Of a stretch of DNA of 64,000 nt, positions 31,596 to 34,268 are shown piece by piece. The translations under genes were made by a program, and so were the position numbers. Positions within the stretch are counted from its first letter, which is position 1, and each line of letters begins with the position of its first letter. Location: the NCBI GenBank assembly GCA_002698785.1, contig PAAG01000059.1, positions 558,001 through 622,000 of the forward strand. Direction: 5' to 3'. Below the pieces are notes generated by a model, which was not told the DNA's origin, ran no database searches, and saw nothing but the letters and a program-made list of their open reading frames with translations. Source of the stretch: Verrucomicrobiales bacterium (GTDB lineage Bacteria; Verrucomicrobiota; Verrucomicrobiia; Verrucomicrobiales; DEV007).

Positions 31596-32765
31596 TCACT
31601 CGCTTTTCTTGTCATTCTTCTGGAACAGTCTTTTAAACAACCCTTTCTCCTCTTTCTCTGTCGAGGGAGCCTTGCGCGAGGTTCGCTTCTCTGAAGCGTG
31701 AGCCGCTGGCTTATCGTCCTCCAAAGGATCTTCAACATACTTCCGAACCAGCCAGTGCTTTTGCAAACCCTCGGTGAGGACTTCGATTTCACGAAGAGTC
31801 TCATTCAACTGGTGAGCCGCCTTATCGATATCGTCGATTGTATTGTTAGTCTTCGATACCGTCGTCGGGAAATTCTGAGCTGCTCGGTTGAATGGCTGAA
31901 CACCACCCTCTCTGAGATTGGTGATTCCTTCGTTCAGATTATCGATCGCTCCCTCAAGGTTTTGCGAGGTTCGATTTAAAGTCACCGCAAACTCATTGAA
32001 CTCCTTCCTCATCTGGGAATCCGAAGAAATCATATCCCCGAGCGCTCCGTCGCCACTCTCGGCACGAGCGATCACCTTATTCAGATCCGCAATCCCTTCT
32101 TCCAGCGAGAGCATAGAACGAAGAAACACCTCCTCCTCATCCGAAAGCTTCTCTATAAATTCCGTCGCGCTGTCTGCCGTCTTCTTATAGCTCTGGATTG
32201 CAGGGACGATTTCAGTTTCGATCCGCTTCACGATTTCGAATACTTCCTCCTTCGCATCCGCCTGTTTCTCGAACTGCAGGATTCGAGGCGCCCCATCACC
32301 GAGATTTCCAAATCGCTTCGTCCCACGGCTGATATCGAAATAGGCGGACCCGAGCCCCCCGAGATCGAACTTCAACACCGCCTTCGAATCTGGCCCGATG
32401 AACTTCGCAAAATCCCCCTTCACTCCGAGAACAGCAACAATCCGAATGTCATTCGGATCCACTTCTTCGAAGGCCTCAATCGGTTTCAGCTCATCTCCCG
32501 TACTCAGGATGATCGACCGAACATGCCCGACTTGACTGCCTATCACCCGCACGTCTGATCCGGGACGAATTCCCATCGTCCCTCCCGATCCATCTTCTTC
32601 ACCAATACCCCCGGGCATCTCCACTCGATAAATGGTAGTCGGCTCAAACCAGTTCTGAGACTTCGCTGCCAGAACGATCAGGATCACAAAAATCCCCGCA
32701 GTAGCGAAAAGGAACGCTCCTACGATTCGATTGATGTGTCTGAATTTAAATGGCCTCGCGTCCAT
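31596..32765 (-). CDS. MCE/MlaD-family lipid transport substrate-binding protein
   Basis: A 389-residue membrane-anchored periplasmic protein of the MCE family. One N-terminal helix (IVGAFLFATAGIFVILIVLAA, about residues 13-33) is followed by the MCE domain with GIRPGSDVRVIGSQVGHVRSI, the usual core. A long alpha-helical, coiled-coil region rich in NxT and leucine repeats runs from about 170 to 330 and may form the tunnel or needle found in other MCE proteins. The C-terminus is basic and charged. It is the third gene of a set with an MlaE permease and an MlaF-like ATPase, which move phospholipids between membranes. The order permease, ATPase, MCE matches Mla operons. Confidence 0.92.
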   Translation of the reverse strand: MDARPFKFRHINRIVGAFLFATAGIFVILIVLAAKSQNWFEPTTIYRVEMPGGIGEEDGSGGTMGIRPGSDVRVIGSQVGHVRSIILSTGDELKPIEAFEEVDPNDIRIVAVLGVKGDFAKFIGPDSKAVLKFDLGGLGSAYFDISRGTKRFGNLGDGAPRILQFEKQADAKEEVFEIVKRIETEIVPAIQSYKKTADSATEFIEKLSDEEEVFLRSMLSLEEGIADLNKVIARAESGDGALGDMISSDSQMRKEFNEFAVTLNRTSQNLEGAIDNLNEGITNLREGGVQPFNRAAQNFPTTVSKTNNTIDDIDKAAHQLNETLREIEVLTEGLQKHWLVRKYVEDPLEDDKPAAHASEKRTSRKAPSTEKEEKGLFKRLFQKNDKKSE

Positions 32766-32814: not shown

Positions 32815-33477
32815 CTACCAATCCTCCCATAAAATATCCGGTTTCAATCCCAACCTTTCGAAAGGTGGGGTCGTTCGTGAGATCCAGAGAATCGCGGTCC
32901 CATTTTCCCGAATTTTCCTCAACTCGCGTATAAAACTCTCAATCGATTCCTCAGGTGCAAACTCCAGAGGGTTTTCAAGAAGCATTACATTCACTCGAGT
33001 AGGCAACATTGCCCTTACCCATTGCGCGCGAACCAAGTCCTCCGGACGTGCCTTGATCGGACGGACTTTCGGCAAGCCTTTCTCCAAACCAAACTTCTTC
33101 GCCAAATCATCGGCATGAGACATGATCTCCGAGTATCGCCTGTTCGCCTCGAAAGCCGGGCAGAGATAAACATTTTCATCTATATCCAGATTCGAGATCC
33201 ATTGCCCAGTCAAGCGAGTGATCGGATCAAAAATCCCGCTGATCGTCATCCGCGTGTCCTCGAGTTCAGTTACCGACATGGAGTCCCAGTTGTTCCCACG
33301 GACCCGAATTTCTCCACTTTTCAGAGGATCGATCCCCAATAGTTGAAAGGAGATTGGGGGTCGACGGAGAAAGCCCATCTCACCCCGTCCAAGCGCCATA
33401 TTTACCGCCCCACCTGGGTAGGAAAGGTCAAACACACAATCGACCAGTTCGAACAATGGTTTTCCGCCTTTTGCCAT
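32815..33477 (-). CDS. MlaF-like ABC protein with degenerate nucleotide-binding motifs
   Basis: A 220-residue protein in the position of MlaF. The frame is intact and the ABC fold is recognisable: LFELVDCVFDLSYPGG, SGEIRVRGNNWDSMSVTELE and a C-terminal TAILWISRTTPPFERLG. Every catalytic motif is altered, however. Where the Walker A GxxGxGKS/T belongs, the sequence reads GFLRRPPISF with no Gly-Lys-Ser. The Q-loop reads TISGIFDP, the LSGG signature is replaced by KARPEDLVRAQ, Walker B ends VMLLENP instead of DEP, and the H-loop His is Arg (SRTTP). ATP binding and hydrolysis are therefore unlikely. It is coupled to MlaE by a one-base overlap (TGATG). It may be a pseudo-ATPase subunit. Confidence 0.8.
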   Translation of the reverse strand: MAKGGKPLFELVDCVFDLSYPGGAVNMALGRGEMGFLRRPPISFQLLGIDPLKSGEIRVRGNNWDSMSVTELEDTRMTISGIFDPITRLTGQWISNLDIDENVYLCPAFEANRRYSEIMSHADDLAKKFGLEKGLPKVRPIKARPEDLVRAQWVRAMLPTRVNVMLLENPLEFAPEESIESFIRELRKIRENGTAILWISRTTPPFERLGLKPDILWEDW

Positions 33478-34268
33478 CAGAGATAAGTCAAAACTGCCAA
33501 TATGGCGGAAACAATGAGAGTCACGGCCACCGATCGTAACATCGCCCGTGTTACCGCCTGCGGCACAGCCGTCGTGTGCTCCGCCACCCGGAGCCCTTCA
33601 TAGCAGCAGATTCCACCAATCAGGTACCCGGGAATGAAACTGCGCCCAATCAAATTCACATAGTCAGCAAGAGAGATCGCCTGAAAAATCGAAGTAAAAA
33701 ACGGTCCAGGAGCGATCCGCCCCACAAACAGAAGAGCGATCCCCGAAGCAGTGAATGCAGCAGCCACAAACACCACCGCCAACCCCGTAGCCGAAAGAGC
33801 CAGACCGATGGATCGAGGCATAATGAGAAACTTGATCAGGCTGATTCCCTGGGACTCAACGAGATCGATCTCACCAGAGACTTTCATATTCGCCAGTTCT
33901 GTGGTGATCGCCGAAGCACTGGCAGAAATAATGATCACACAGGCGAAAAACGGGGCAGCCTCTCGGATGATCGCCACACTCAGCGCAGGCCCAAGATACT
34001 CACTCCGCCCCGTAAACTCGAGCCATTGAAAAGAGTTGATCGTCAGGATGATTCCCATAATACCCCCGGCGAAGAGAGTAAACGGAACCGCCTCCACTCC
34101 ACCAAAGAGAATCTGCCGAACAAATCGCGAGCGCACCGGCCGAACCCACGAAGAGGGCCGCACCGCGAAAGCCACACATTCCGTGGAGATAGCAGCAAGG
34201 TAGAAAGTCCCTTGAAAAAGGTATCTTCCCATTCTTCCAACAGCCCCTGCCACATGACCCAACGTCAT
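33477..34268 (-). CDS. MlaE-family ABC transporter permease
   Basis: A 263-residue inner membrane permease of the MlaE family. Five or so hydrophobic helices include FTLFAGGIMGIILTINSFQWL and GLALSATGLAVVFVAAAFTAS. The conserved EAAPFFACVIIISASASAITTELANMK block, with the coupling helix that meets the ATPase, is intact, as is DLVESQGISLIKFLIMPRSI. It opens the lipid transport operon with the MlaF-like protein and the MCE protein. An intact permease with a degenerate ATPase next to it implies that energy comes from an ATPase encoded elsewhere or that transport is passive. Confidence 0.92.
   Translation of the reverse strand: MTLGHVAGAVGRMGRYLFQGTFYLAAISTECVAFAVRPSSWVRPVRSRFVRQILFGGVEAVPFTLFAGGIMGIILTINSFQWLEFTGRSEYLGPALSVAIIREAAPFFACVIIISASASAITTELANMKVSGEIDLVESQGISLIKFLIMPRSIGLALSATGLAVVFVAAAFTASGIALLFVGRIAPGPFFTSIFQAISLADYVNLIGRSFIPGYLIGGICCYEGLRVAEHTTAVPQAVTRAMLRSVAVTLIVSAILAVLTYL

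Follow-up and report, generated by a model that had tools for sequence, protein, structure and literature searches.

The DNA analysed here, hereafter the window, is a whole stretch of 64,000 nucleotides from a Verrucomicrobiales bacterium (contig PAAG01000059.1, positions 558,001 to 622,000). Its reverse strand carries an operon of three genes, in the order mlaE-like permease (MlaE2), pseudo-nucleotide-binding domain (pNBD) and MCE protein, with the following features:

33477..34268, reverse strand: MlaE2, an mlaE-like permease of 263 aa and first gene of the operon (Pfam MlaE, alignment, tree)
33475..33479, reverse strand: TGATG, the stop of mlaE2 overlapping the start of the pNBD gene (sequence)
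32815..33477, reverse strand: pNBD, 220 aa with an ATG start, an MlaF-like ABC fold without nucleotide motifs
33346..33375, reverse strand: former Walker A (P-loop), GFLRRPPISF (alignment with MlaF)
33172..33201, reverse strand: WISNLDIDEN, residues 93-102, a family-invariant segment just past the Q-loop position (alignment)
33010..33054, reverse strand: former signature and the helix after it, KARPEDLVRAQWVRA (alignment with MlaF)
32968..32988, reverse strand: former Walker B, VMLLENP, with Asp replaced by Glu and the catalytic Glu by Asn (alignment with MlaF)
32866..32880, reverse strand: former H-loop, SRTTP, with His replaced by Arg (alignment with MlaF)
31596..32765, reverse strand: MCE protein of 389 aa (AlphaFold2 model, Foldseek)

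From the TGATG overlap, it is inferred that mlaE2 and the pNBD gene are likely translationally coupled. Unrelated enzymes flank the operon, namely an FAD oxidoreductase upstream and, on the other strand, a SASA esterase downstream, and a scan for promoters and terminators gave nothing above chance. Absent from the window operon are the M48-peptidase and CHASE2-cyclase neighbours found at some relatives' loci. At such loci (L097:7024-9808, L082:7506-12570, L080:3305-9210 and similar ones), these genes, together with TPR, SH3 and MBL-fold ones, trail the operon, the record titles reading Kiritimatiellae for L082 and Spartobacteria for L097. Among 47 loci longer than 8 kb, some places being counted twice, the M48 cluster was found 9 times, SH3 8 times, CHASE2 17 times and MBL 7 times. 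The TPR, SH3 and M48-peptidase surroundings seen in some relatives form an envelope-like context.

The initial annotation of this DNA, made from the sequence alone, had proposed a gene with an open frame flanked by an MlaE permease and an MCE protein; the 220-aa frame starting at ATG as well as both neighbours agree with it. MlaE2 meets membership of the Pfam MlaE family (PF02405; 2.5e-44, 151.8 bits for a cut-off of 22.5). With 20.4 bits, the MCE protein of the window remains under the Pfam MlaD cut-off of 25.1, which the one of the relative L097 passes (38.8 bits). The MCE fold after an N-terminal transmembrane helix is met by structural comparison, Foldseek matching the protein to Mce1 (2.6e-9) and also to E. 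coli MlaD. In the AlphaFold2 model (mean pLDDT 74.7), the transmembrane helix (residues 8-36) is followed by the MCE beta domain (approximately 43-167), a helical stretch (171-341) and a disordered-looking tail, the long helical region (about 170 residues) being predicted at lower confidence. Because the protein combines a transmembrane helix, an MCE domain and a long helix and resembles Mce1 and MlaD, it may plausibly form a lipid conduit leading to the outer membrane.

Regarding pNBD, the window protein has no Pfam match at E≤1, no phmmer match in the PDB at E≤10 and only weak ABC matches in NCBIfam (best 0.015). Pfam ABC_tran is found in 37 of 44 family members at E≤0.1, the window protein not being among them, and the profile of these 44 members (A3) matches LolD in the PDB at 1.4e-20. 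The AlphaFold2 model of pNBD (pLDDT 93.5, pTM 0.90) resembles ABC NBDs, including LolD (Z 21.9) and E. coli MlaF (6xgz; Z 20.1, rmsd 2.8 over 207 residues). By homology and by predicted fold, pNBD belongs to the ABC ATPase (NBD) superfamily, in line with the earlier proposal that the ABC fold had been kept. The C-terminal extension of MlaF (the handshake of ~25 aa) is missing, pNBD ending 19 residues past the H-loop column where MlaF goes on; the initial annotation had not mentioned this absence.

The initial annotation had also read GFLRRPPISF, KARPEDLVRAQ, VMLLENP and SRTTP as degenerate nucleotide motifs. A joint alignment of 72 near-full-length family members (8 of 80 being too partial were left out) with 53 distinct canonical MlaF from mlaE loci places these strings at the motif positions, and in the window pNBD none of the five motifs (Walker A, Q-loop, signature, Walker B, H-loop) survives. 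In the MlaF reference, the P-loop residues G, S, G, G, K and S, the Q, SGGM, DE and the H are each present in 53/53 proteins. In the pNBD family, the Walker A consensus GxxxxGK[S/T] is not met, the Lys being kept in 2/72 members, the Ser in 0/72 (Thr in 9) and the first Gly in 5/72, with the third P-loop Gly (25/72) among the less strictly lost positions. The P-loop region is moreover 6 residues shorter than in MlaF (6/72 members), a feature that had escaped the earlier reading. The Q-loop Gln is found in 0/72 members, with an Asp at this position in the window pNBD. Neither is the signature LSGG[Q/M] met (ARPED in the window), its Ser being retained in 17/72 members, its first and second Gly in 4/72 and 8/72 and its Met in none of the 72. 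In Walker B, Asp is left in 4/72 (Glu in 63) and the catalytic Glu in 8/72, neither of them in the window protein, and the H-loop His is found in 0/72. More than half of the members (39/72) have none of the 11 key nucleotide residues, and the maximum kept is 4, in one member.

As the 80 distinct members were selected for lacking a P-loop and for scoring above 105 bits, the absence of any P-loop among them is by construction. At the 45 loci from genome contigs, for which no P-loop filter was applied, the best-matching ORF is in every case without P-loop and without SGG signature. An intact NBD (P-loop, SGGM signature, DEP) stands in control at 53 of 54 canonical mlaE loci, the exception being a short stretch (L019), and the motif loss in the family is therefore more than chance. 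All members that were read and that score above 110 profile bits show the same loss.

In place of the nucleotide motifs, the family has acquired invariants of its own, all found in 0/53 MlaF: W64 (72/72), W93 (68/72), N96 (70/72), P136 (70/72), W153 (68/72) and W198 (71/72). Its hallmark is made of four Trp and of W-x-x-N-L-D-x-x-E-N. In NBDs, the stretch just after the Q-loop faces the coupling helix of the permease, and W93-N102 is presumed to be the docking side of pNBD facing the permease, function and docking being both inferred. These invariants could also form a site for a ligand or a partner, in which case pNBD would be a sensor or regulatory pseudo-enzyme binding another ligand or protein and gating MlaE2. 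The CHASE2-cyclase and M48-peptidase genes neighbouring the operon in some relatives are in favour of such a function; however, they are absent from the window operon, and the invariants are spread over several separate sequence segments (their positions on the model have not been mapped). We regard this sensor function as unlikely.

Queried alone, the window protein has matches in 11/95 genomes, its own genome included. One of these matches (L011/L048 in G041, 1.8e-4) was dropped as a different degenerate ABC protein; located at L048:7345-8184 and labelled here OppF-like, it has GGEASGKL as Walker A, no SGG signature and changed Walker B and H-loop. With the first profile, 11/74 genomes of the bacterium's own family reached at least 240 bits; the next among the matches listed was at 61, and other homologous ABC matches under 62 bits were left aside. 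By record titles, the taxa include Verrucomicrobia and subgroups, Kiritimatiellae, Lentisphaerae, Sedimentisphaerales, Phycisphaerales and one Akkermansia MAG, and relatives are encoded at 45 loci among 125 pattern matches in genome contigs. In the phylum sample, a profile search located pNBD in 50/387 genomes. The number was at first 53, but the lowest-scoring places (G262, G439, G454 and another one in G159; 91-94 bits) are ABC proteins whose P-loop is intact and do not count. Of these 50 genomes, 47 were read (the window plus 46 loci), G216, G369 and G399 not being included. In a second phylum, that of a Sedimentisphaerales-titled genome and taken from this title as Planctomycetota, pNBD is present in 4/246 genomes. 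The search of close relatives for the same degenerate pattern, suggested at the outset, has thus uncovered a conserved dead family of 80 distinct members, which is wider and older than could be seen from the window; its mechanism is untested.

In 69 of the 80 distinct members, mlaE, pNBD and mce follow one another in this order on the same strand. Among the 11 without the full order, 7 are at a contig end; in L169 and L170 (genus g119), mlaE2 is located elsewhere and not beside pNBD-mce; L080 has no mlaE within 2.6 kb, and in L216 mce is absent only at a strict threshold. At L099:4178-6531, approximately 0.8 kb separates mlaE2 from the pNBD gene, unlike at most other loci.

Selection was evaluated by the Nei-Gojobori method on the closest 30 of the 64 pairs that passed the identity cut. 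The dN/dS of pNBD is 0.06-0.30 in 29/30 close pairs, one value not being finite; these pairs are formed by relatives and not by the window gene, whose nearest relative found (41% identical) is too distant for a dN/dS of its own. Where computable, dN/dS amounts to 0.03-0.32 for MlaE2 (three pairs being without MlaE2) and to 0.02-0.29 for the MCE protein. The values are rough, with many dS near 1 and many pairs sharing a member. In close pairs, pNBD is a dead NBD kept under purifying selection. The dN is higher in pNBD than in MlaE2 for all 27 pairs having both, and mean identities over five genomes of the window's group are 38.9% for pNBD vs 59.8% for MlaF, 61.6% for MlaE2, 56.8% for the MCE protein and 60.6% for canonical MlaE. 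The dead NBD is held more weakly than the live one, MlaE2 being as conserved as canonical MlaE, and the low identity relative to MlaF together with the higher dN indicate that part of pNBD is weakly constrained.

This low identity, compared with that of MlaE2, is what a decaying gene or a sequencing artefact would have in its favour. Against it, the frames are open and dN/dS is far below 1, the same invariants recur across many genera and two samples at phylum level, and the permeases form one clade. Internal stops appear only once each in the search tables for G007 and G116; judged by their coordinates, they either coincide with the regular stop codon of the gene or are located three codons away from where the match ends. 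We consider decay or artefact to be practically ruled out. None of the outcomes that would have refuted the initial annotation (dN/dS near one, frequent stops in relatives, a functional P-loop) appeared, and the dN/dS values, the uniform loss, the new invariants and the single permease clade all support its suggestion that a non-ATPase role is under selection.

Searching the 246 genomes of the second phylum with the profile of the dead-type MlaE (A4) gave a graded series of matches, and among the 30 loci fetched, the NBD is dead in 4, partial in 17 and intact in 7, none being shown in 2. The 17 partial NBDs (MlaE-linked loci L236-L239, L241-L250, L252, L254 and L258) have all lost SGG; the catalytic Glu is kept in 6, the Q-loop Gln in 10, the Walker B Asp in 16 and GK[S/T] in 15 (strict P-loop in 10), and the H-loop His only in L245, L246 being uncertain. 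The only locus above 105 bits in which a P-loop is present (L217; 108.9 bits, same place as L254) was left out of the set of 80 members and counted as partial. The partial NBDs are possible ATP-binding, non-hydrolysing intermediates.

A maximum-likelihood tree was computed from 81 MlaE proteins (33, 17 and 31 with a dead, partial and intact NBD, respectively) without using the NBD. The NBD states line up in a row along this tree, and bootstrap/SH-aLRT supports are 99/95 for the dead clade, 100/98 for the dead clade with one partial group (partial-II), 95/82 for the other partial group and 100/99 for the intact one. The three NBD states require two changes on this tree, which is the minimum. 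Five rows have long branches (L102 the longest), and the root is assumed on the intact side, an assumption that is well-founded since the superfamily as a whole shares the intact motifs. Given this root, the sequences read as a stepwise loss of the ATPase, in which signature and H-loop would have gone first and the P-loop last; the order is taken from the number of relatives keeping each residue and not from a reconstruction.

An active mlaF elsewhere in the genome had been proposed as a further check, and indeed the source genome carries both systems, the canonical Mla system being on G000:C54. A match to the MlaF profile of at least 314 bits is present in 59/60 carrier genomes. MlaE2 might thus draw on the cell's canonical MlaF as its ATPase in trans, pNBD being a placeholder or a regulator competing for the docking site. 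In mycobacteria, one ATPase, MceG, serves several Mce permeases, and MlaE2 retains the segment TTELANMKVSGEIDLVESQGISLIKFLIMPR in the alignment with canonical MlaE, which by recall and alignment we take to be the coupling-helix region. However, co-occurrence means little and was set aside as evidence, because MlaE is present anyway in 221/240 genomes of the phylum sample, and the identity of MlaE2 to five canonical MlaE is only 18-24%. Moreover, G189 encodes pNBD, the MCE protein and one MlaE of the dead type; a canonical MlaE and an MlaF-level match were looked for in this genome and none was found, the best match to the MlaF profile (184.8 bits) being at the level of many other ABC proteins. 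This single draft genome (110 contigs, estimated 100% complete) hints that the pNBD system can stand alone. The loci L169, L170 and L263 belong to G189 and G202 (genus g119). Two other genomes with an odd mlaE, G250 (L264/L268) and G290 (L265/L267), were rejected, the MlaE match being split into two overlapping pieces, apparently by a broken gene or an assembly error. On balance, we judge powering of MlaE2 by MlaF in trans improbable.

The same distribution provides a candidate partner for a heterodimer, the alternative put forward in the initial annotation, in which pNBD and an active NBD would sit together on MlaE2, one of the two sites being degenerate as in TmrAB or CFTR. ABC heterodimers with one degenerate subunit are common. 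However, pNBD having neither P-loop nor signature, pairing with a normal MlaF gives no complete composite ATP site, and SGG is already gone in every partial NBD. The heterodimer is consequently disfavoured, to the point of being a very weak candidate, without being excluded given the MlaF-level match in nearly all carriers.

Our preferred reading, which we hold with no more than even confidence, is that of a three-gene MCE/Mla-type lipid transporter made of MlaE2, a dead NBD and a long MCE protein, with the NBD as a structural pseudo-ATPase; there is no direct evidence of transport, docking or ATP-independence. pNBD would dock on MlaE2 through its W-x-x-N-L-D-x-x-E-N face, would be required for the MlaE2 dimer to assemble with the MCE ring or to remain stable with it and, once docked, could hold the MlaE2-MCE complex in one conformation. 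The complex would then conduct lipids between the inner and the outer membrane independently of nucleotides, its flux set by gradients or partners, and may run in parallel with the cell's ATP-driven Mla system. As energy source, we infer passive flux as first choice, followed by a second ATPase in trans, which is possible since nearly all carriers have an MlaF-level match. ATP-independent lipid transfer from MlaD to MlaC is described as possible in the part available of a review (PMC10212509). Against a motorless system, the known Mla pathway needs ATP hydrolysis, since complementation is lost in E. coli when the Walker motifs of MlaF are mutated, and the C-terminal extension absent from pNBD is required there (PMC7367683, in the portion consulted). 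More tentatively, we propose an ABC-type lineage that may have given up ATP altogether, its permease having dead NBDs only and acting as a passive lipid bridge scaffolded by them. Living intermediates would then record which parts were lost first (signature and H-loop), next (catalytic Glu) and last (P-loop).

The ATPase is the defining component of ABC transporters, and here it reads as lost in steps while the protein is still selected beside its permease. A stepwise-dead NBD would suggest that an MlaE/MCE lipid conduit can be useful without an ATPase of its own, which would bear on the debate on the direction and energy of Mla transport and offer a natural split of the structural role of an NBD from its catalytic role. 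It is also a warning that sequence-based surveys of MlaF can miss the NBD in such operons. In a literature search limited to open-licence papers, with one listing viewed in part, we recognised no description of a dead MlaF.

Among known systems, the ABC NBDs of LolD/MacB/FtsE type are the closest to pNBD by profile and by fold, and they retain the nucleotide motifs (LSGG for LolD in the alignment), of which pNBD keeps none. E. coli PqiAB and LetAB (YebST) are MCE proteins without an ABC ATPase, whose membrane partners are not MlaE and which have no NBD-fold subunit; in our preferred reading, the pNBD system shares with them an MCE protein working without an ABC ATPase, whereas MlaE2 and an NBD-fold subunit are found only in the pNBD system. 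The mycobacterial Mce1 and Mce4 systems associate a permease with MCE proteins bearing a long helical tube and use an active MceG in trans, with no dead NBD in the operon. The pNBD system resembles them by its permease and by its MCE protein with a long helix, for which Mce1 is a Foldseek match, and differs by the dead NBD encoded in its own operon. Finally, the minimal MlaEFD of Veillonella type, a three-gene system described as ancestral (PMC10665443), is similar in its mlaE, NBD and long MCE genes without MlaA, MlaB or MlaC, in its MlaE and MCE folds and in its overlapping genes. As far as the accessible part of this survey indicates, MlaF was sought by synteny and by an MlaF profile and its annotation was called uncertain, and we infer that pNBD could therefore have been missed there. 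Judged from the same part of the survey, the operon of the window differs from MlaEFD in that its NBD is dead and has no C-terminal extension (PMC10665443).
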